Source of the DNA: Theocolax elegans
Taxonomy: Eukaryota > Arthropoda > Insecta > Hymenoptera > Cerocephalidae
DNA: 64,000 nt
Assembly (NCBI GenBank): GCA_026168455.1
Contig: CM047431.1
Span: forward strand, 7,896,943-7,960,942
Direction of reading: 5' to 3'
The notes beneath the pieces were generated by a model. It searched no databases. It had not been told where the DNA came from and was given only the letters and a program-made list of their open reading frames with translations. Shown in pieces: positions 6,402 through 60,580 of this stretch; the first letter of the stretch is position 1; the number at the start of each line of letters is the position of its first letter. Position numbers and translations under genes: made by a program.

Positions 6402-6544
6402 ATGATTAATTTCTATGAGTAAAGTATATAATATCGGTCTTTCTCGAACTAAATGCTTTAATTTAAAATAAAGCAGGCCTATCGTACTCTTTGTCCACTA
6501 TGGTTGGTGGAATTTCCCAGAGCACGGCGTTTTAAATTAATTAA

Positions 6545-6613
6545 AGGCTTTTCGTCCTCGATCTCCAGCTTGGACTCCTCAGTAAGGAACTGGAGATTTT
6601 ACCTTAGACGCCT
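6545..6613 (-). ncRNA. type III hammerhead ribozyme, unit A
   Basis: On the minus strand the order is stem III, GUC cleavage triplet, stem I (UAAGG/CCUUA), CUGAGGA, stem II (GUCC/GGAC), GAA, stem III return strand. Predicted cleavage lies between 6607 and 6606. In this copy stem III has one mismatch (AGGCGU against AAGCCU), and loop I carries an A in place of G, so activity may be reduced. The loops still share eight complementary bases. Confidence 0.85.
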
Positions 6614-6943
6614 GTCGCAAGATGAACCGCGACGCCAGCAAGATGTTTTGCGGCTATATATATATAGAAAAGAGACGACGATCTCTCCAACGAGTGTAGA
6701 GAGATAGTAGTCTCCATCTGGTGGTAGGAAAAACCACCAGCCAGATTGCGACGTCTTAGACCGAGTTGCAAGTTATTTGCAATAAAATGAAAATATCGTT
6801 CGGTGATATGTATATGAGTAAAGTATATAATATCGGTCTCTCTCGAACTAAATGCTTTAATTTATAATAAAGCAGGCCTATCATACTCTTTGTCCACTAT
6901 GGTGGGTGGAATTTCCCAGAGCACGGCCTTTTAAATTAATTAA

Positions 6944-7012
6944 AGGCGTTTCGTCCTCGATCTCCAGCTTGGACTCCTCAGTAAGGAACTGGAGATCTTA
7001 CCTTAGACGCCT
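6944..7012 (-). ncRNA. type III hammerhead ribozyme, unit B (intact)
   Basis: All core elements are present on the minus strand: AGGCGU/ACGCCU stem III of 6 bp, GUC triplet, UAAGG/CCUUA stem I, CUGAGGA, GUCC/GGAC stem II and GAA. Both loops have 14 nt and contain perfectly complementary 9-mers (GAUCUCCAG and CUGGAGAUC), which predicts a kissing interaction. Predicted cleavage lies between 7006 and 7005. It sits exactly 399 bp from the copy in unit A, so a transcript through both would yield a unit-length RNA. Confidence 0.93.
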
Positions 7013-7432
7013 GTCGCAAGATGAACCGCGACGCCAGCAAGATGTTCTGCGGCTATATATATATAGAAAAGAGACGACGATCTCTCCAACAAGTATAGAG
7101 AGATAGTCGTCTTCCTCTGGTGGTGAAAAAAGCCACCAGTCAGAGTGCGACGTACGCAGCCGAGTCGCAAGTTATTTGAAACAAAATGAATTTATCATTC
7201 GTAAATATGTATATGTATATAATATATAATATCGGTCTCACCGAACTAAATACTTTACTTTAGAATAAAACAGGCCTATTGTACTCTTTGCCAATTGTGC
7301 TTGGTGCAATTTCCCAGAAATTCTGGTTGGTGGATTTTCCCACCACCAGAGGGAGACGACTATCTCTCTACACTCGTTGAAGAGATCGTTGTCTCTTTTC
7401 TATACATATAGCCGCAGAATATATGTATAGCC

Positions 7433-7497
7433 GCGTCTAAGGTAAGATCTCCAGTTCCTTACTGAGGAGTCCAAGCTGGAGATCGAGGACGAAACGC
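7433..7497 (+). ncRNA. type III hammerhead ribozyme, inverted unit, shortened stem III
   Basis: The plus strand carries the GUC triplet, UAAGG/CCUUA stem I, CUGAGGA, GUCC/GGAC stem II and GAAAC. The 9-nt loop complementarity is intact. Stem III is reduced to 4 bp (GCGU/ACGC), because a deletion just upstream removed the segment that precedes the ribozyme in the other units. Confidence 0.82.
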
Positions 7498-7924
7498 CTT
7501 TAATTAATTTAAAAGGCCGTGCTCTGAGAAATTCCACCAACCATAGTGGACAAAGAGTATGATAGGCCTGCTTTATTTTAAATTAAAGCATTTAGTTCGA
7601 AAGAGACCGATATTATATACTTTACTCATATACATATCACCGAACGATATTTTCATTTTATTGCAAATGATTAAATTCTTATTTTACTTTCAAATTGTTA
7701 TGAAAATTACAAACTTACTACACTTTTGTCGCAATGAAAACTACATAAATAATAGAATAAACAATTGGATGAACTCCATGAAAGAATTATTTAAAAAACA
7801 TTGATGTTTTCACTATATGTCGAAACATTAAACGAACAATCAGTTAAGGGGACAAGCCTGGGTTAAATGCTGAAAATAAATAAAGTGATTTAGTCGTATG
7901 TAAAAATTTTTTAAAAATAGTTAA

Positions 7925-8439
7925 GGGGATGTCGGAGCTATAGCCTCCATCAAAAGCCGTGAGATCGAGCGGCTTCGAATGGCGCTGTAGTCAGGTGTCG
8001 ATTTCTACGATAAACGTACTTAAAACATAAATTATAAATTTTACAGCTATATAGAACTGTTGAAAGATACTTTCCCCCCTAGCTATAACTAAAATTAAGG
8101 TAAATTGTACTATTAGTCTTGGCAGCAAATGTTTATTTTTTTAAAGAAATGTGAAATACGTTGCATGTAGCATTACGGCAGATATAGATTCATTGAATAT
8201 GAGACGTATTTCACATTTCTTTAAAAAAATAAACATTTTCTGCCAAGAATAATATTATAATTACCTTAAGTTTAGTCATAGCTAGGGGGGAAAGTATCTT
8301 TCAACAGTTCTATATAGCTGTAAAATTTATAATTTATGTTTTAAGTACGTTTAACGTAGAACTCGACACCTGACTACAGCGCCATTCGAATCCGTGAGAT
8401 CGAGCGGCTTTTGATGGAGGCTAAAGCTCCGACATCCCC
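7925..8439. mobile_element. 515 bp foldback MITE nested in the Kolobok-like element
   Basis: The ends are GGGGATGTCGGAGCT and its complement, flanked by TTAA at 7921-7924 and 8440-8443. The arms (7925 to about 8165, and about 8200 to 8439) are near-perfect inverted copies. One 21 bp palindromic segment next to TTCGAATGGCG is in opposite orientation in the two arms, as if it had flipped. The GGGG start and TTAA duplication match its host element, so the same kind of transposase may have moved it. Confidence 0.85.
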
Positions 8440-9228
8440 TTAAGGTCCTGGAAATTTGTATACTTACAATATACTATATTTACTTGATTTTCCCTGAGAT
8501 AAACTTGAATTAAAATCCACTTATCCTGCTCCGTAGTCCATGGTTGCACAATATCCATTTTTTGCTCAAAAGATACTTGCCGTAGACTTTCTTGAATATG
8601 GGCCATCCGTATAAGCCCAGGTTGGAGGTAAATGATCTTAGTTATAATCTAATCCACTTGAATGGAGCACTTTTCTGAAACAATCAAATGAACAACAATT
8701 ATTTATAAAATTACACTACTTTTTCCATTTTTAGTCATTTTTGTCAAATAAATTGTTTGTAACTTACTTGGAAACATTTTTTAACTCAGTGTGCTCCATT
8801 CAAGTGGATTAAAATATATATAAGAAGGTCTCCTCCAAATTTCATCAAGATTAAATGTGTAGATCCTGAGATATCCTGCGGCAACTGACTGAAAAAGAGA
8901 AAAAATAACATTTTGAGATATTTAAGTTTAAAGTTTATATCTAAAAATTATATATAATTATTGTAGCTATTTTAAATAATTGAAAACTACAATCTAAAGG
9001 TTGTAGGAAATCAGTTCCTACTAATAACCTCTTTGAGGTTACTTACAAATCACTGAATGACACTGAAAAGAAAAATAGATTTTTATTAATAAAACATGGT
9101 AAATGACCTTACCATTGCAATACAGATTTTGAAAGTTACTTTTTTTCATCACTTCTGTAAGGCAATTGTGTGAAGTTCCAGTCAAAGCGAGCACCCTTGG
9201 TAATGAATTTAGCCATCCAGTATGATGC

Positions 9229-10646
9229 TCAATGCTGACCTGCTCCGTAAGAAGTTTCTGGCACCTGCAATCTTTCTTGCCTTCTCGCTCTCATTGCCTC
9301 CATGGTGTTGGCTTCCACTTTCCTCTCTGCATGGAACAACCTTGAGTCGTTGCTCACTTTCACCCAGTCATGCACATACTGTCTAGGGGTGACGCCAAAC
9401 TGCTTCATGATCTGCAAATAAGCTGCTCTTCCATCATTGAAAATGGTGACAGCCGTATATTTCTGCCACTGACACCAACTACTCACTCCAACCGGGCACA
9501 GATGATGTTGAGGCTTCTGATCAGTTGATATTTTGTGGTAATACGTAGCCCATATAGCATCTGTCATTTCCTCGACAGAATCACTGTGGGCTCTAATCGC
9601 ATTACCATAGTACACAGTCAACTGATCAATAACTCTTGCAGTCAATCTTCCCTGACCTCCGATACTCTTGCCATCAGATAACTTCTGTGCACCTAGAATT
9701 TTCTTCAAGTTCCTTAGGCTTGTTCCCATTCTCTTCTGAACGTGCCCAACACACTCTTTCTTCTCCACTAAAATTTCCCCATAAGGTTCAGTCTCGAGAA
9801 TTGTCTTGAACACTTTGGAGTCACCATCACCAATGAAACGACGATACATCACTCCATGTTTCTCCTCAGAGCGCTGAAACATTTGCACAATACCGTCCAC
9901 TTCCATTTTTCCAGCAGATTCTTCATGATTTGATGAGCACTGAGCCTTGTGTTTTTCAAACCACTCCAAATAATCTGTTGTCTCAGTTTTTCCTTCCCAT
10001 CTGGAACAAGCCAAACAGAAGGAATTTTTGATGGCAACATCAATCACTTTGCCAGTATAATGTCCAATTACACTTGAGACTCCTTAGAGCGATGAAAATC
10101 CTCTCTTCCTGTACGTCCCATCACCAGAAATAGTGAGTTCATTTGAGTTGTCAGGTGTCAATTCCAATTCTTCTGTCACAGCCTTACTCATGGATTGCTC
10201 AGCGACTCTTTCACAAGCATCACTGATCTGCTCGTTGACACTATCAAAATTACTGTGGCTTATAGGTGGTGGTAAATCCATGATACCACAAAAACTTGCC
10301 AATCCTGCGTGTCCTTGCCCAAGAGCTCGTGCAGCCAAAACACTTCTCTTATTGACGTCATAAGCATTCCTTTTTGGACCCAATAACTTGCAGGAATTTA
10401 TTGGATATGCTCTTTGACACTTAGTGCACTTTACAATGAGCTTGAATCCCAGGCCACGTTCCTAGAAGCTGTCCTCAATCTTTTTGGTGAAGGGCTTCGC
10501 TCTTCTGTGTTGCCATGAAACTTCTTCGCTCTTTTCTTTTTTCTTCCAAATACTCTTTTCTTGTATAGGCCAGCTCCTGAAGAACCAGGTAGCCGACCTC
10601 GACTATCTGGTACTTTACTGTCTGATGCCATAGCACCAGTTTTCAA
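9229..10646 (-). pseudogene. Kolobok/Mutator-like transposase, one frameshift and one in-frame stop
   Basis: The N-terminal part (10431-10646) is basic and rich in Lys and Arg. A frameshift near 10440 leads into a CxxC motif and then YDVNKRSVLAARALGQGHAG, a stretch typical of insect Mutator-like transposases. The frame continues through SGDGTY (first Asp). It then has a single TAA at 10081-10083, and goes on in the same frame to GDGDSK (second Asp) and ECVGHVQKR (likely Glu). The C-terminal part has CP...SWCQW, a probable zinc-binding segment. The total is about 470 residues, so the gene is nearly complete and probably inactivated recently. The reaction would be cut-and-paste transposition at TTAA. 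Confidence 0.85.
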
Positions 10647-18977: not shown

Positions 18978-20705
18978 TCACACTTCGTCTTCCTCTGTTC
19001 CTACTACTTCTACTATTGTCGCGGTTAAAGCCAAGTCTTTTTCTAGGTCTTCGGTAGCAATCTTTACAAGCATAATGTCTTTCACCATCATGGTTAATTT
19101 GTCTACGCCTTCTTTGGTCGTCATCATCCTTTTCGTATTTCTAGCTGCTTCTTCCATATCCTGTACATGTTTATGCCGTATTGTTTCGTACTTCACACAT
19201 GTCCATAAAGCATGTTTGGGGGTGTCTGCCTCTCCACAGCTGCATAGGTCGGACTCTACAAAGTTAAATCTTTTCCTGAAAGATTGGAAGTTTCCATGTC
19301 CACTGAGTATTTGGATCAGCCATTTACTCGGTCTAAACCAAAACTTCGCTAGCCTTTCTTCTATGCTAGGTAAAACCTCATATGTGCGTCTTCCTTTTAT
19401 CGTGTTATCCCATCTCAACTGCCATTCTTTTCTTATCTCCTGGTCTAGTCTTTCTATTATCAATTTTCTTTCTCTTCGCGTGCCTAGTCCTTCCTCCGAT
19501 TGTACTGTAAAGTTTTTATATCGGTATTCTTTTCCTTTTCTCATCCAATATAGTCCGATTCTTCTTTCGCACTCTAAGTCAATCGGTAGGTGACCTGTGA
19601 TCATTGTAATAGATTCGGCCGAGATGGTTCTGTACGCTCCTGTGGTTTTCATCAGGGCATATCTTTGCGACATTATGAGTTTCTTTTTCTGGACATTATT
19701 TGTGAGCCCGTACCATCCTGCTGCTGCATATGTTATTATGGGTATGAACACTCCCTTATATATTATATCTAGAGATCGATAGCCTAAGCCCCATTCCTCT
19801 CTTGCCAGGAAGGCCAACCTTTCGAAAATTCCTCTGGTTTTCTTTGAGATCTCCGTAACATGCGTTTGTACGCTAAGGCCTTTGCCAAAAGAGACGCCCA
19901 GATATTTAAACGGTTCTTGCCTTTTAATTCTTTGTCCGTTTATTCTGATTAGTGGGTAACATTTAGGATGAAATGTTCCCTTTGCTAGTAACATTGCACA
20001 TTTATCTGGGGCATGTTTCATTTTGACACTTTTACTCCATTCTTCTATTATATTTATGGCCATCTGTCCTTTCCGTTCCAGTTCTTTACGGGAGTCTCCT
20101 TCGATTATGATTGCTTGATCGTCTGCATAGGCTATCGTCTCATGTCCTTCTCTGTCTAACTTGTGAAGCACTTCATCAAATACGACATTCCATAGGATTG
20201 GACCTAGTAGGGATCCCTGTGGGCATCCCTTTGTCACATTTTTGCTTGCAAAATTGCCACCTTCGGTTATTATTACTTTCCTATTACAGAGGTAATCCCT
20301 AACGATATTGTACAGTCTCCAGGGGCAGTTCATGCCTCTCAGGTTCTTTAGTACTCCCGGCCACCATACATTGTCAAATGCGCCCTTAATGTCCAAAAAC
20401 ATTATGAGTACATATCTACAGCTTGAGTTGTGCACCTTGGTCTTTAAGTACACTATCGCATCTTCGGTTGATCTGCCTTTCCTAAAACCGTATTGTTTGT
20501 CAGACAGACGTGGTTCCACGATTTGATCTAATTTTTTGATTATCAGACCTTCCAGAATTTTTCCTAAAACTGGTAGCAGGCATATTGGTCTATATGAACT
20601 AATTAGACCAGGATCTTTGTCTCTTCCCTTTTTGATTGTAATTACTTTGCCTGTTTTCCAAGTATTCGGAAATATACCGAGTTTTAGACAGTTATTCCCT
20701 GGCAC
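18978..20705 (-). CDS. non-LTR reverse transcriptase (ORF2, N-terminally deleted)
   Basis: This is a 575-codon open frame. Motifs in order are YRPICLLP (about residue 38), YGFRKGRSTEDA (72), FLDIKGAFDNVWW (103), GCPQGSLLGPILW (160) and the catalytic YADD (193-196), followed by KYLGVSFG. A CxC...H....C zinc knuckle (CSCGEADTPKHALWTC) lies near residue 490. These features place it in the R1/LOA/I-like part of the non-LTR tree; I cannot fix the clade. The frame enters directly from an ORF1-like sequence with no endonuclease and no RT-0 region, so the ATG is not a natural start. The unbroken length suggests a fairly recent copy. Confidence 0.9.
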   Translation of the reverse strand: MPGNNCLKLGIFPNTWKTGKVITIKKGRDKDPGLISSYRPICLLPVLGKILEGLIIKKLDQIVEPRLSDKQYGFRKGRSTEDAIVYLKTKVHNSSCRYVLIMFLDIKGAFDNVWWPGVLKNLRGMNCPWRLYNIVRDYLCNRKVIITEGGNFASKNVTKGCPQGSLLGPILWNVVFDEVLHKLDREGHETIAYADDQAIIIEGDSRKELERKGQMAINIIEEWSKSVKMKHAPDKCAMLLAKGTFHPKCYPLIRINGQRIKRQEPFKYLGVSFGKGLSVQTHVTEISKKTRGIFERLAFLAREEWGLGYRSLDIIYKGVFIPIITYAAAGWYGLTNNVQKKKLIMSQRYALMKTTGAYRTISAESITMITGHLPIDLECERRIGLYWMRKGKEYRYKNFTVQSEEGLGTRRERKLIIERLDQEIRKEWQLRWDNTIKGRRTYEVLPSIEERLAKFWFRPSKWLIQILSGHGNFQSFRKRFNFVESDLCSCGEADTPKHALWTCVKYETIRHKHVQDMEEAARNTKRMMTTKEGVDKLTMMVKDIMLVKIATEDLEKDLALTATIVEVVGTEEDEV

Positions 20706-21941: not shown

Positions 21942-22311
21942 CCTCGTCAAATACAATTTAAACCTCCGAGTGCCGCCTCCCTTCCAGGTGCCACCTGGAG
22001 CAACCGCAGCAAGTTTAATTTTTACACACGCTGCTACAGGGCAGCCCGACTAACTGGCGAAGAAAGCCCGGGCCCTGGTACTATCGTGCGGTCCGGGCGT
22101 GCACGATCGGCGATCCGAACGCCGACCTCCCGGTTTATATGATGTACCCTCTTTACATCCAGGTATTCATAGTACTTCCCGTCGAGCTATAGGTTTTCAC
22201 TGCCTCCCTTGCTTTGCGCACTGCCTTCTCGTGTCGCAGATACGTTTATCCTGAGTCTGCGTCTTAACACCGGCCGGCCACCTCTCCAACCGACCGATGC
22301 CCATTGCTGCG
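21942..22311 (-). repeat. LINE 5' leader, copy 2
   Basis: Closely matches 1-313, and lies upstream of ORF1 of the inserted LINE. It contains an extra GTGCGGTCCGGGCGTGCACG segment absent from copy 1. Confidence 0.75.
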
Positions 22312-22403
22312 ATTTAGCCTACCGAGACGCTGATGCCTACGCTGTCAGCCATCGGCGTTTCCCCCTCTGGCGGCGTGGACGCACGCAGTTGGTTTTCCAG
22401 AGG

Positions 22404-23652
22404 TTCCAAGTGCCACACTATCTCATGGAGGTCACCTCGAGTTACCTGACTGACCGTACTCTGCTCTACGACACCGACGACGGTGTGCACTCCCACAACA
22501 TCACGGAAGGCGTGCCGCAGGGTTCGGTCAGTGGGCCCCTACTCTGGAACGTTGTCTATGACGGCCTGCTTAGGCAGCAACTTCCGGAGGGAGTCTCGAT
22601 GGTAGCTTTCGCGGACGACGTGGCGCTAGTGATGGTCGCAAAGAGTGTCAAAGAGATCGAATATCTCGGAGACGTCTCTATAAAAGTGGTCGCCACTTGG
22701 TTGAGAGACCACGGACTTAGTCTGGCGGCGGAAAAACGGAGGCGGTGCTCACCTCTCGCACAAAAAAGGAGAGGACCGCCACCTTCACGGTAGGTAAAGA
22801 ACGGATACGGTCGGTAAAAACGTTGAAGTATTTAGGGGTCACACTAGACGCGCGGCTGTCGTTCAAACACCATCTCGCAAACGCTGGCTCAAAGGCGGCA
22901 AAGGTGGCCCGTGCGCTGGCGGGCATCATGCCCAACATCGGGGGACCCCAGCAACCGCGAAGGTCCCTCCTTGCCTCGGTGGTAAGCTCCGTAATTTTAT
23001 ACGTAGCTCCTATCTGGGCTGATGCCCAAAACAGGCACAAGAGCTTTGGTGCTCCGTGCCAGAGAGCCTGCAGGATAGCTGCGCTAAGGGTGGCCCGGGC
23101 GTACCGAACCGTATCTGACATTGCGCTTTCGGTGGTCGCGGGGACCGCCCCCTTCGACCTCCTGGCAGCCGAGAGAACTGAACGACACCGTGAGGGTGGG
23201 CGACGCCTAGAAGAGAACCGCTGCCACAACCGATGGCCATTGCGGACCGTAGAGGAGCGGCAGCGGAGATGGGACTCAGCCAGGGACGGCCGCTGGAACT
23301 ACCGCATCATCCCGCGGATCCACCTGACCCAGGAGTTGACCGGGCACGGATGCTTCCGTAGCTACCTATTTCGTATAGGGGTCTACGGCAGCGCAGAGGG
23401 CCCGGCTTGTCCAGGGGTGGACGAAGACGTGGAACACGTCCTCTTACGGTGTCCTCGTTTCAGGGAGGGACGGGACCAATTTCAAATCACTTGAACCGGT
23501 CCCCTCACCCTTGAGGGCATCGGGGCGTGCCTGCTTGGCTCCCAGGAGGGATGGAACGCGGTAGTGACCCTCTGTACGTCCGTAGTGGACAGGCTGGGTC
23601 TCATCAGAAGAGAAGAGGAGAGAAGAGTTGCGATAGCAACAGTAGTGGGCTA
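22404..23652 (+). pseudogene. R1-clade ORF2, C-terminal half of reverse transcriptase and zinc knuckle
   Basis: The frame resumes at FQVPHYLMEV, directly continuing the frame broken at 18196. It shows GVPQGSVSGPLLW, the catalytic FADD, KYLGVTLDARLSF and a C-terminal CPGVDEDVEHVLLRC knuckle typical of R1-clade elements. A single-base loss near 22735 shifts the frame. Another break near 23492 introduces a stop before the conserved tail GACLLGSQEGWNAVV, which ends at TAA (23650-23652). The 28-30 kb copy ends with the same tail. Confidence 0.85.
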
Positions 23653-38674: not shown

Positions 38675-38903
38675 TGTGGCATGAGACTTTTAAGTGCTGA
38701 ATAAAAAATGAAGCGGCGTCGGGTCTTGAACCCGAGCCCCTTCGGATCCGAAGGCGTTCACGCTAACCACTGCGCTACGCCGCACTGGTCGTAGCGCCTA
38801 CTTATTGCTCTTATTGCATATATGCTACCGATACCGCGCCGCCTCGCGGTGTCGGTAATGCTGGCATCTTATATGACAAGTGGATTAAATCCACCTTGTC
38901 ACA
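38675..38903 (-). mobile_element. 229 bp LTR carrying a tRNA-like sequence (copy 2)
   Basis: On the minus strand it runs TGTGACAAGGTGG to GCCACA and matches the 228 bp unit at 31602-31829. Its 3' end is followed after 3 nt by a sequence complementary to the 5' half of tRNA-Asp. No internal region or second LTR follows, and no target duplication is evident. Confidence 0.65.
38713..38783 (-). ncRNA. tRNA-like sequence inside short LTR (copy 2)
   Basis: The 71 nt sequence has a perfect 7 bp acceptor stem (GCGGCGT/ACGCCGC), a GTAGCGCAGTGGTTAGCG D arm and a 5 bp T stem (TCGGG/CCCGA) with TTCAAGA loop. The anticodon arm CCTTCGGATCCGAAGG is a palindrome rather than a normal arm. Both A and B boxes are intact. 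Confidence 0.65.
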
Positions 38904-52644: not shown

Positions 52645-53899
52645 GGGCTATTTCACGTCAAGTGGTACGATGAAAATTTTAAATCGCTCCAAAATTTGAA
52701 AACAGGCTGGAAATATCTTTCAGAAGATAGAAAAAAATTTTTAGGTGTTAAAAATAATTTGCCTAAGAGTTATTCCATCATGAAAAATGGAAATTTTTCA
52801 ATTTTTTAGAAAAATTACTATTTTCAAAGCCATTTATCTCAAAATCTATTGATTTTTTTGAAAAAACATTAAAAACAACTTTTGTTCAAAATAATCTTTA
52901 GATCTTATCTACCTGGGTTACAATTCTTAATTTTAAAATCTCGAAGAAATATAACGCCCGGAAATATTGAATATCAAAAAAAGGTGACCACGCCACAATC
53001 GATTTTGATCTAACACCGCTCAAAAGATCACATTTTTCGCGAGCTTTCGAATGGCGGTGGTTAGATTATTGGCCAAGACCGTTGGTGTAAGTTATACCCC
53101 ATAAACCTCATAAAATCACTCATTTTCATGTATTTTAGGGCATTTATCTCAAAATCTATTGATTTTTTTGAAAAAACATTAAAAACAACTTTTGTTCAAA
53201 ATAATCCTTAGAACTTAACTACCTGGGTTACAATTCTTAATTTTAAAATCTCGAAGAGATAGGGCACTTGGAAATATTGAATATCAAAAAAAGGTGACCA
53301 CGCCACAATCGATTTTGATCTAACACCGCTCAAAAGATCACATTTTTTGAGAGCTTTCGAATGGCGGTGGTTAGATTATTGGCCAAGACCGCTGGTGTAA
53401 GTTATGCCCTAAAATACATGAAAATTAGTGATTTTATGAGGTTTATGGGGTATAACTTACACCAACGGTCTTGGCCAATAATCTAACCACCGCCATTCGA
53501 AAGCTCGCGAAAAATGTGATCTTTTGAGCGGTGTAGATCAAAATCGATTGTGGCGTGGTCGCCTTTTTTTGATATTCAATATTTCCAAGTGCCCTATCTC
53601 TTTGAGATGTTAAAATTAAGAATTGTAACCCAGGTAGATAGGTTCTAAAGATTATTTTGAACAAAAGTTGTTTTTAATGTTTTTTCAAAAAAATCAATAG
53701 ATTTTGAGATAAATGGCTTTAAAAATATAAATTTTTTTAAAAAATTGAAAAATTCCCATTTTTCATGGTGGAATAACTCTTAGGCAAATTATTTTTAACA
53801 CCTAAAAATTTTTTTCTATCTTCTGAAAGATATTTCCAGCCTGTTTTCAAATTTTGGAGCGATTTAAAATTTTCATCGTACCACTTGACGTGAAATAGC

Positions 53900-53935: not shown

Positions 53936-54962
53936 GGTATTCCACGTGAAGTGGTCCGATCAAAATTTTAAAATGCATCAAATTTTGGGTATACAATGCA
54001 AATGTTTTTCAGAACACAGAAAAAAATTTTTAGGTGCCGGACTTAATTTGCTCAAAAGTTATTCTAATCTCAAAAAGCGAAATTTCCAAGTTTTTTTAAC
54101 ACCAGCTGGGTTTACCACTATTTAACTCAAAATCTATCAACAAAATCTATCAATTTTACTATAGAACATTATATGTAACATTCGTTGCTAATTATGTCTA
54201 GAATTTATCCTTCTGCGTTAGAATTTCTAATCTCAAAGTCAATGTTACATATACTACATGTCAATATTTAACTTAAAAAATGTAAGTGCGCCACAATTGA
54301 TTTTTTTATGCAAAAGTCTAAAAGAAAGCTTGGAGTAATACCTTTCAAATGGTTTGTAGCATTTTTATGTCCTTTAGTTCTGTAAAAAGTTAGAATAATT
54401 TAAAATTCTCAAAAAACAGAAAAAAATGACAAAAAATTTACAAAAATTAACGTAATAATTCCCATTTAAATTAAAAAAAAAATTTCGTGTATCTTTAAAT
54501 TATCATAGTTTTTACAGAACTAAAGGCCATAAAAATGCTACAAACCATTTGAAAGGTATTACTCCAAGCTTTCTTTTAGACTTTTGCATAAAAAAATCAA
54601 TTGTGTCGCACTTACACTTTTTTAAGTTAAATATTGACATGTAGTATATGTAACATTTACTTTGAGATTAGAAATTCTAACGCAGAAGGATAAATTCTAG
54701 ACATAATTAGCAAAGAATGTTACATATAATGTTCCATAGTAAAATTGATAGATTTTGTTGATAGATTTTGAGTTAAATAGTGGTAAACCCAGCTGGTGTT
54801 AAAAAAACTTGGAAATTTCACTTTTTGAGATTAGAATAACTTTTGAGCAAATTGAGTCCGGCACCTAAAAATTTTTTTCTGTGTTCTGAAAAACATTTGC
54901 ATTGTATACCCAAAATTTGATGCATTTTAAAATTTTGATCGGACCACTTCACGTGGAATACC

Positions 54963-58734: not shown

Positions 58735-60580
58735 ATTGATTGATTGATTGAGACTTTATTCGGTCGTTTGGGGTAGAAACCCCATAGGCACTACAGATAA
58801 TACAAAGTATTTTACAGCATAGTTAATATAGGTTAAAATCTTAAAACCAAATAACAAAAATAAACGCTTGGTAATAACTTAGAATCATAGATCAAAGTTA
58901 TAACAATATAGCTAGAGCGCAAATTGCTAACAGGTAATAAAATAAAACAATATAATAATAAAATAAAATAAAATAATAATAGAATAATACAATAAAAAAA
59001 ATTATATAATGCAATAAATTAAATAAAGGATCGAAGAACGCTCGAATTTCTCATAGAACAAATTATTCAGATACATAGATAAAATACAGATAACGACGAG
59101 TTAAAAGTACATAAGTTAAAATAAGACTAGAAGTTACAGTAAAATAGGAATAATAACTACGAAGCCTCCTCGAGACATGGGATGGGCCGTGGCGCGATGC
59201 CCTCAGTTGCGATACGCATAGACCAGGCATTTCTGTCGAGCCCAAGCAGGTGGTTAAAAAGAATAGTTTTGAACTTTTCTATGAACATGGGATTAAATGG
59301 AATGGAGGGAAGCTGATTGATGATACGAGTGGAGGTTATAATGAATGATTTATTTAACGATTCAGTGCGTGGCGGAAGGTATGAGAGGGGTTTGGGTGGA
59401 TGACGAGAGGAATATCGAGGATTCTGATCGGGGGTGTTTAATATAATAAAGTGATTTGCTAAATATTAAATGATGATATAATGATGAGATGATATTAAAT
59501 GCTAGGGAGCCGATGAGAAAGGACCGTCTGGACTCGACAGAAAGCCATTTTAAGCCTAATTTATATGGAGTAACGTGATCACGCCTCGCTATATTACCCC
59601 AAACAAATCTTACACACGCATTCAACAATCTTTGAAGCTTAATATTTCTAGTCTGATCTACATCATGATAAACCGCACACGCATAGTCAAAATGCGGGAA
59701 AATAAGTGTTTCTACCAGATTTTTGCGGAGTTTAAGCGACATAGTTTTGCTATAATAACGCAGCGAGTGCAGTACTCCATGGGCGCGCCTTGAAATTCCC
59801 ATGACTTGCTTTGACCAGTCCAGAGTAGGGGTTATCATAACCCCAAGCGATTTTACCACATTTTCATACTTCAAGTAGTCATTGTTTAATCTGACCCTCG
59901 GAGCAGTGTCCAGGTTAATACGCGCAAGGTAAGCCTGACTTCCCAGGATCATGACCTTCGTTTTTTCCACATTTAACTTAAGACCGTTATTAATCGCCCA
60001 ATTCGCTATTGCATTCGCATCACAAGTAATACGCTGAACTGCATTATCGATATCTGATGGAAGAAACGAATGATAGACCTGGGCATCATCGGCAAACAAC
60101 ATATAATTACAATATTTAAGGATCTTAGGCAGATCATTGATAAAAATGGAAAAAATAACGGGACCCAGGACACTGCCCTGCGGCACTCCTGCATTTACCC
60201 CAAGCCAATCCGATGTCACACCACCCTCATCCACCACGGCCTGCATGCGGCCAACAAGATATCTATAGAACCAGTTCAGCACAACATCTGAACATCCGAT
60301 GTTACCCAATTTCTGAATGAGGAGATCATGCGGTACCGTGTCAAAGGCCTTGGAGAAGTCGAACAGGACCAAGATCGTTATCAACCTGGAATCAACAGCC
60401 CTTCTCACATCATCAAGTACACCTAGAAGAGCTGAATGAGTACTGTGTCCCTTTCGGAACCCCGCTTGCCTAGCAGTTAATAAACAATTTCTCTCAAGAT
60501 ACTCAATCAGCTGATCATGCACTACTCTTTCCAAAATCTTCGAGAGCTCACAGAGCTTGGCTATTGGTCTCGTGTCCGAG
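58731..60580 (-). mobile_element. CR1-like LINE, 5'-truncated, with tetranucleotide tail
   Basis: On the minus strand the element begins inside its reverse transcriptase at about 60580. It ends with GAATAAAGTCTCAATCAATC..., a (TCAA)n tail at 58731-58751. Short tandem 3' tails in place of poly-A are typical of CR1/L2/Rex-type LINEs. Its 5' side abuts the GA-rich tail of another copy of the family. Confidence 0.8.
59362..60579 (-). CDS. CR1-like non-LTR reverse transcriptase, N-terminally truncated
   Basis: Frame open from RPIAKLCELSKILERVVHDQL (first annotated Met at 60534) for over 390 codons. Motifs from that Met: AGFRKGHSTHSAL (residue 24), FDFSKAFDTVPHDLL (58), GVPQGSVLGPVIFSIFINDL (116) and catalytic FADD (147-150), followed by LNVEKTKVM and a thumb region ending near residue 350. 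The domain order and the lack of RNase H fit the CR1/Rex/R4 side of the tree; I cannot choose among them. The endonuclease and first RT motifs are lost by 5' truncation. The long uninterrupted frame suggests a young copy. Confidence 0.88.
   Translation of the reverse strand, partial: SDTRPIAKLCELSKILERVVHDQLIEYLERNCLLTARQAGFRKGHSTHSALLGVLDDVRRAVDSRLITILVLFDFSKAFDTVPHDLLIQKLGNIGCSDVVLNWFYRYLVGRMQAVVDEGGVTSDWLGVNAGVPQGSVLGPVIFSIFINDLPKILKYCNYMLFADDAQVYHSFLPSDIDNAVQRITCDANAIANWAINNGLKLNVEKTKVMILGSQAYLARINLDTAPRVRLNNDYLKYENVVKSLGVMITPTLDWSKQVMGISRRAHGVLHSLRYYSKTMSLKLRKNLVETLIFPHFDYACAVYHDVDQTRNIKLQRLLNACVRFVWGNIARRDHVTPYKLGLKWLSVESRRSFLIGSLAFNIISSLYHHLIFSKSLYYIKHPRSESSIFLSSSTQTPLIPSATH

Follow-up and report, generated by a model that had tools for sequence, protein, structure and literature searches.

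A probable retrozyme family with a predicted type III hammerhead and Penelope-like insertions in the genome of Theocolax elegans

The genome of Theocolax elegans contains a dispersed family of tandem units of about 396 nt that can with good confidence be regarded as a metazoan retrozyme, that is, a non-autonomous, non-coding element with a predicted type III hammerhead ribozyme, 9-bp kissing loops and mobilisation by a Penelope-type reverse transcriptase (RT). The family is real, mostly young and probably functional, with a predicted type III ribozyme and a Penelope-like mode of insertion. The analysis started from a window of 64,000 nt (the whole stretch of DNA under study, G000:C7:7896943-7960942, in a 658-Mb assembly), where an initial annotation had described tandem 399-bp units with type III hammerheads at positions 6415-7666 and had brought retrozymes to mind, an idea that the family as a whole supports.

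The tandem units with their type III hammerheads were confirmed by Tandem Repeats Finder, which gave a period of 399 bp in 2.3 copies at 6414-7318 (the family consensus period is 396), by matches to the Rfam hammerhead model RF00008 and by inspection. The borders of the annotated interval turned out to be those of an insertion, but the content is not a simple tandem: it is a whole inverted insertion flanked by target-site duplications (TSDs), in which two arms meet head to head between 7318 and 7322 (Table 1). Both this Penelope-like design and the inverted third hammerhead copy on the plus strand had been overlooked. The right arm carries an internal deletion upstream of its hammerhead. The TSD measures 13 bp, with ATGATTAAWTTCT outside both arms and exact identity over 8 nt, and the alignments of the arms to the unit overrun into it, by a few bases on the left and by two on the right. 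Positions in the fetched copy of this locus (L039) were converted by adding 5357. Its two units lie 5.3 and 6.4% from the consensus, among the three most divergent of the 72 compared, and the insertion is a divergent, probably older member of a dispersed and mostly young family.

Table 1. Coordinates of the insertion and its parts, in positions of the window
Feature	Position	Strand	Evidence and remarks
Whole insertion, two head-to-head retrozyme arms	6415..7666	.	Arms mapped on the 396-nt unit; flanked by TSD
Left TSD, ATGATTAATTTCT	6402..6414	.	Sequence; 12/13 identical to right copy by inspection
Right TSD, ATGATTAAATTCT	7667..7679	.	Sequence; contains the exact 8-nt part common to left copy
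Left arm, two units and 5′-truncated third, S-type 3′ end	6409..7318	-	Alignment to unit
Right arm, inverted, L-type (tail) 3′ end	7322..7668	+	Alignment to unit
Full units of 399 bp	6409-6807 and 6808-7206	-	Each with a type III hammerhead
Right-unit type III hammerhead	6943..7013	-	RF00008 36.5 bits, E 7.4e-6; predicted cut 7006/7005
Left-unit type III hammerhead	6544..6614	-	Inspection; core present; predicted cut 6607/6606
Inverted-arm type III hammerhead	7430..7500	+	RF00008 30.4 bits, E 4.1e-4; predicted cut 7437/7438

The surroundings of the insertion hold several other repeats. A separate palindrome with 183-nt arms, 93% complementary, adjoins it at 7921-8443; it looks like a MITE and probably explains a match to a microRNA family, below the gathering score, in L039. 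Inverted pieces of about 200 nt at 54203-54695 are 82-86% like the flank of the GIY-YIG locus L070 and probably represent another Penelope-related palindrome. The minus strand at 9229-10047 has an open frame for a Mutator-like transposase (PF20700, E 6.7e-42), and three frames matching RVT_1, at 18978-20705 (-), 59362-60534 (-) and 22209-22793 (+), are probably non-LTR retroelements. A 310-bp tandem (1.9 copies, 94% matches) at 52831-53409 and a tRNA match of 34.6 bits, either a tRNA gene or a SINE, at 38711-38784 (-) complete the inventory.

The right-hand hammerhead of the left arm is intact and has the family's commonest sequence. Stem III is formed by AGGCG/CGCCU, the cut lies at GUC^U, stem I is UAAGG/CCUUA, and the core CUGAGGA is followed by stem II (GUCC/GGAC) and GAAA, so that the sequence elements CUGANGA, GAAA and NUH are all found, along with three stems of which stem III is the open one, as in the type III class of RF00008. 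Loops I and II have 14 nt each and contain a perfect 9-nt complement (GAUCUCCAG/CUGGAGAUC), which arose in 23 of 200,000 trials with shuffled loops; likely loop-loop pseudoknots have been described in about 40% of hammerheads (PMC3088659). The proposed type III topology with long complementary loops is thus supported by RF00008, by inspection and by the 9-nt complement, and the two cut positions proposed for the left arm were correct by inspection. The further claim that both units carry complete hammerheads is true of the right copy, which is perfect, but only partly of the left one, where the core nucleotides are present and GAAAA in place of GAAAC removes the G16.2-C15.2 pair beside the core. 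Raising the E limit to 10 in the search of the 1,451-base stretch did not bring up an RF00008 match for this copy, and it is probably weak, by analogy with a toad hammerhead with a GAAAg box that was reported to cleave 20-fold more slowly than a termite one, which the authors connect with differences at the cleavage site (PMC7936874). Because the pair adjoining the core is lost, the expected clean release of 399-nt RNAs from the locus as it stands is unsupported. The inverted copy has a C.C mismatch in stem III that leaves 3 bp. The locus itself possesses one clean and two damaged ribozymes.

Both RF00008 scores of the locus, obtained by searching the 1,451-base stretch alone, are below the Rfam gathering score of 48.5; the 14-nt loops exceed those of the model. 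A search of the whole window at the gathering threshold reported no hammerhead. When seven loci (42,413 bases) were searched together at E up to 0.1, only L021 was reported, at 39.9 bits, and not L018 and L039, though their ribozyme is identical, which indicates that the model detects this loop variant unreliably. The same 71 nt as in the window's right-hand hammerhead are present in 49 of 99 near-full copies from 37 fetched loci, which include the window's own and two that are mutual duplicates. Core, stems and 9-bp complement are all kept in 59 of these copies. Random substitution in the core, proposed earlier as grounds for doubt, is not the pattern observed, since 92 of the 99 keep the core; given that the family is very young, this retention reveals little about selection. 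Similarly, in a diversity scan the 69-nt ribozyme window ranked 28 of 396 for low diversity, a position that is not decisive for selection.

A query of one unit against the insect's own genome gave 126 matches, spread over six chromosome-size contigs, among the 40 scored of 1,561 first-look candidates. A second query, the 78 nt around the priming sites, gave 41 matches among the 40 scored of 1,454 candidates, all of them 100% identical across the aligned part. The loci fetched comprised 37 from the first list, which were the best full-unit matches, a selection that favours long arms, eight others from the second list and a long array (L085). In the 37 places, 72 near-full units differ from the 396-nt consensus by 0.5-6.4%, and 66 of them by no more than 4%; the family being this young, living animals may still express the units. 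The GC content of the unit is 42% and the longest frame in a tandem trimer of the consensus has 70 aa, so the unit contains no long frame and none of the RT and GIY-YIG coding capacity that characterises a Penelope-like element. The unit has a TATA-like stretch some 50 nt upstream of its cut site, together with an Inr-like TCATCT, and these are only suggestive of a promoter.

Some loci depart from the common arrangement. In the array L085 (G000:C2:43784000-43787700) nine or more units share one orientation, an inverted piece begins on the left, and the array continues beyond the fetched stretch. At L016/L017 (G000:C2:21475000-21486500) the retrozyme lies within a stretch of about 2.93 kb repeat period with open frames, which we take to be reminiscent of the L protein of negative-strand RNA viruses. 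Loci with large interiors were considered as autonomous copies and rejected. The open frames in the 3-kb gap of L014 resemble by eye a DDE transposase insertion and not Penelope. Of the spacings of 2.8-2.9 kb, that of L044 reflects a duplication whose frames do not exceed 79 aa, that of L016/L017 is placed in the repeated stretch just described and the third belongs to the array L085.

The usual insertion consists of two head-to-head arms of tandem units, one ending at an AC-rich stem-loop (S), the other (L) some 37 nt beyond it in the 3′ direction. With the sense unit numbered from the hammerhead cut, outer 3′ ends were typed as S at about 184-201 (...TTTACACATAT) or L at about 224-236 (...TTTATTTCAAAT), whereas inner 5′ ends are scattered across the unit. 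When both samples are taken together, S is paired with L in 26 of the 27 palindromes with both ends typed. The first sample includes 24 two-armed loci, after exclusion of L016, which duplicates L017, and of L021, in which duplicated palindromes form a composite. Its labels were assigned by hand; all 22 fully typed loci pair an S end with an L end, and in each of L037 and L040 one of the two ends is untyped. In the second sample of eight places, the pairing holds for four of five typed palindromes (L086, L088, L091 and the first of L093), the exception being L089, which is S/S and lacks a clear TSD; L087 and L092 were untypable and L090 is one-armed. L093 (G000:C4:12157400-12159400) combines a short L/S palindrome with an adjacent one-armed L copy.

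Target-site duplication is also common in the family. At 27 of 35 loci, made up of 22 of the 24 two-armed and five of the 11 one-armed, the two flanks share an exact run of 8 nt or more, compared with 10.5% of mismatched pairs. The commonest length is 13 nt, an approximate figure because some runs overlap element ends or simple repeats (L009, L011), and in the second sample four of the eight places have shared flanks of 13-15 nt. TSDs also flank one-armed, 5′-truncated copies (L015, L022, L024, L026 and L041). Head-to-head arms, a tail at one end and a TSD are together the marks of a Penelope-like insertion.

Penelope elements reside in the same genome. A search for GIY-YIG domains reported 98 matches, with 150 of 1,713 first-look candidates scored. 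One family (L050, L051 and L056-L059) has frames of up to 884 aa (L058), an 832-aa frame in L056 that matches both RVT_1 and GIY-YIG, and copies arranged head to head. Its hammerhead core resembles by eye the minimal type I, as do those of other GIY-YIG families, and searches for hammerhead families at E up to 0.1 reported none in L051, L056, L057 and L059. The ends of this family are again of two kinds, S (...ATATATCAAA) and L, about 31 nt further (...TTCTCATAT). As read from the printed sequence, L050, L051, L056 and L057 have one S and one L end each, with shared flanks of 9, 13, 13 and 15 nt, respectively. The resident Penelope family and the retrozyme units are thus unrelated in sequence and share the same S/L tail design. 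Comparison of the unit with the fetched GIY-YIG loci revealed no long-frame element sharing more than 16 nt, and the ends of 20 further GIY-YIG loci gave a single 13-nt match only; for this reason the helper is assigned by design and not by homology. The named species among 120 listed relatives of the resident Penelope protein are Leptopilina, Trichogramma, ants and one weevil, the first two of which we take to be wasps; these names point to a parasitoid wasp or a related insect as the probable host. A second GIY-YIG family (L052-L055), with copies 99.6-99.9% identical, occurs head to head at G000:C4:36104614-36111131, and a hammerhead core was not found in it with the pattern used.

The variants carried by the units provide information on the template of each insertion. 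One comparison covered 19 polymorphic sites in 31 loci, after removal of the duplicated, composite or interrupted loci L014, L016, L017, L021, L028 and L044. Within one aligned piece, 626 of 638 pairs of units agree (459.5 expected from the pool at common polymorphic sites); between different pieces of a locus the figure is 322 of 341 (244.3 expected). With only L016 left out, the counts are 1181 of 1202 within pieces (911.6 expected) and 816 of 842 between pieces (636.8 expected). The mean distance between units is 0.97% within a locus and 3.5% between loci, a contrast not reached in any of 2000 label shuffles. Private variants occur in units of both arms, for example in L030, L034, L035 and L038, and others are confined to one arm or some units (two further sites of L038, and L042). 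There is thus a tendency for the units at a locus to go back to a single monomer, as expected of rolling-circle reverse transcription of a circular RNA. The signal in trees is weaker: the nearest relative of 49 units from multi-unit loci belongs only to their own locus in 21 cases, is tied in 19 and comes from another locus in nine, and the units form a clade of their own in five of 13 multi-unit loci.

The length of the arms limits the kind of RNA that could have been copied. A linear monomer released by the ribozyme is rejected as the template because 41 of 49 tabulated arms are longer than it permits and none of the 49 5′ ends lies within 10 nt of the cut, with the reservation that arm lengths are biased upward because loci were chosen by full-unit matches. 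The table of arms was compiled by hand and omits L014, L016, L021, L023, L028 and L040, one arm each of L011, L018, L034 and L037, the repeated copies of L044 and minor additional pieces at other loci; in L034 the aligner divided the arm at the cut, but another alignment runs past it. Arm lengths and the likeness of units fit several laps on one circle, and a homogeneous multimeric transcript may also be compatible with them. Tandem-unit loci would yield such multimeric transcripts too, and gene conversion could mimic an origin from one monomer. The unequal S/L ends and the arm-specific variants of L038 speak against an origin of the second arm by self-priming (snap-back).

The predicted RNA of the unit is strongly folded. 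For the L018 unit the sense strand has z = -7.9, and either strand gives about -8 relative to shuffles; 64% of the circular fold is paired, and the S site is the 3′ side of a stem-loop with loop AAUUUACAC. In a nearest-neighbour model the hammerhead secondary structure has -13.5 kcal/mol and the kissing duplex -13.8, before any loop cost, and a competing rod hairpin, at -28.9 kcal/mol, is slightly better than both together. These modelled energies are so close that they suggest a kinetic switch.

Purified Penelope protein cuts and extends both strands in vitro, and its starts are internal, in an AC-rich stem-loop, at two adjacent sites matching the tail (PMC11167929). The 31-bp tail of Penelope has been described as optional and located on one of the inverted pseudo-LTRs, with TSDs of 8-10 bp (PMC3846280). 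From the location of S in a stem-loop and these start sites we infer that the units are mobilised in trans by a Penelope enzyme, for which S and L are the starts. Near-strict S/L pairing and shared variants further suggest that both strands are primed on one RNA. A tentative model, to which we give somewhat less than an even chance, is that a Penelope dimer primes both target ends on one small RNA circle, at S and L, with two RTs following each other, and that the 9-bp helix acts as a switch, with the hammerhead cutting in one state and an inert rod keeping the circle closed in the other. In the preferred reading, the unit would be transcribed, each copy would be cut by its type III hammerhead, whose active fold would be closed by the 9-bp pairing of loops I and II, and a host ligase would close the RNA into a circle. 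The same 9 nt could alternatively form a rod hairpin of similar stability, with the ribozyme off and the circle protected. The Penelope-type RT/GIY-YIG protein would then cut the two target strands about 13 bp apart, and both 3′ ends would prime on one RNA, one at S and the other at L, about 37 nt downstream. Both polymerases would follow the circle, in many cases beyond a full lap, and joining of the two cDNAs at their 5′ ends would generate head-to-head arms. Two RTs on one circle, as in the tentative model, would explain the S/L ends of nearly all typed two-armed insertions, the occurrence of the same private variants in both arms of several loci and the extension of arms beyond one unit.

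Other origins of the family have to be weighed against a retrozyme mobilised by Penelope enzymes. One alternative is an autonomous Penelope whose terminal repeat carries a type III hammerhead; the units would be its pseudo-LTRs and the tandems its internally deleted offspring. The S/L tails, the TSDs of about 13 bp and the head-to-head arms match the resident Penelope family, and families may have been missed, since the GIY-YIG search scored 150 of 1,713 candidates. This origin is nevertheless unlikely because the examined Penelope ends share no more than 16 nt with the unit, Penelope hammerheads look by eye like minimal type I, and neither the 3-kb interior of L014, which resembles a transposase insertion by eye, nor the duplicated interior of L044, with no frame over 79 aa, supplies an autonomous copy. 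A quite improbable origin is a viroid-like circular RNA of the insect or its microbes, reverse-transcribed by Penelope enzymes, so that the copies would be endogenised RNA agents. Size, the 64% paired circular fold, a type III hammerhead as in plant viroid-like RNAs and the one-monomer signal per locus would agree with it, as would type III hammerheads reported in HDV-like RNAs of termite and toad (PMC7936874). On the other hand, the hammerhead is matched on one polarity only of each arm, the 126 matches lie on six chromosome-size contigs (40 of 1,561 candidates scored), and the exact 34-nt ribozyme string has no match in IMG/VR, where a degenerate type III pattern gave four matches, on contigs of 23-100 kb.

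Two further models are highly improbable. Ordinary satellite DNA, spread by unequal crossing-over and with the hammerhead as a relic, would account for tandem units and for the array of at least nine (L085), and older hammerhead repeats indeed go by the name of satellites; however, dispersal, fixed S/L ends and TSDs require insertion, and TSDs at most loci contradict this origin. There is equally little to be expected of a DNA transposon (MITE) with the units inside its terminal inverted repeats. Inverted arms and TSDs are what it predicts, but the two ends are unequal by the 37-nt tail, the centre is variable, TSDs are about 13 bp long and the one-armed, 5′-truncated copies listed above are flanked by TSDs as well.

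The preferred reading, a retrozyme inserted by a Penelope-type enzyme, bears on a step for which Penelope elements have been considered a strong candidate in animals, the return to the genome being left open (PMC7229834). The family offers genomic evidence on this reinsertion, in the form of S/L ends, duplications of about 13 bp and arms mostly from one monomer, and the S/L ends shared with a Penelope family hint at a possible copying route for elements of this size. In addition, it provides a natural hammerhead with a 9-bp kissing loop. Here the evidence for Penelope-type insertion comes with a ribozyme type reported mostly from plants (PMC7761336). Insect elements that carry type III hammerheads are also mentioned in that source, with reference to an earlier paper and to work then in preparation, and type III in insects is therefore not new as such; a description of an insect type III retrozyme was not found in the literature searched, an absence that carries little weight.

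Among known systems, the non-LTR retrozymes of metazoans as described in PMC7229834 have much in common with the unit: it is a non-coding tandem hammerhead unit within 170-400 nt, its GC is under 50%, and it has TSDs and Penelope elements in the same genome. Those retrozymes carry type I hammerheads, in agreement with the initial annotation, which described animal retrozymes as mostly type I, whereas the hammerhead here has type III topology with a 9-bp loop-loop helix; and, unlike in that description, the insertions have Penelope-type S/L ends and inverted arms. With Penelope-like elements (PMC11167929, PMC3846280) the family shares head-to-head arms, an optional tail of 30-40 nt at one end, TSDs, AT-rich targets and a hammerhead upstream of the priming site, but the unit has no RT/GIY-YIG frame, its ribozyme is type III and not minimal type I, and its sequence shows no notable likeness to those Penelope ends with which it was compared. 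Plant LTR retrozymes (PMC7229834, PMC7761336) are likewise non-coding, with a type III hammerhead and a circular RNA intermediate, which for the unit would be a predicted one; they differ in their LTR layout, in TSDs of 4 bp in contrast to about 13 bp and in units of 600-800 nt in contrast to 396. Finally, the hammerheads of termite, fly and HDV-like RNAs (PMC7936874) resemble the present one in being type III in insects with enlarged helices I and II, but the termite motifs are reported there as isolated, whereas those of T. elegans belong to a dispersed mobile family.
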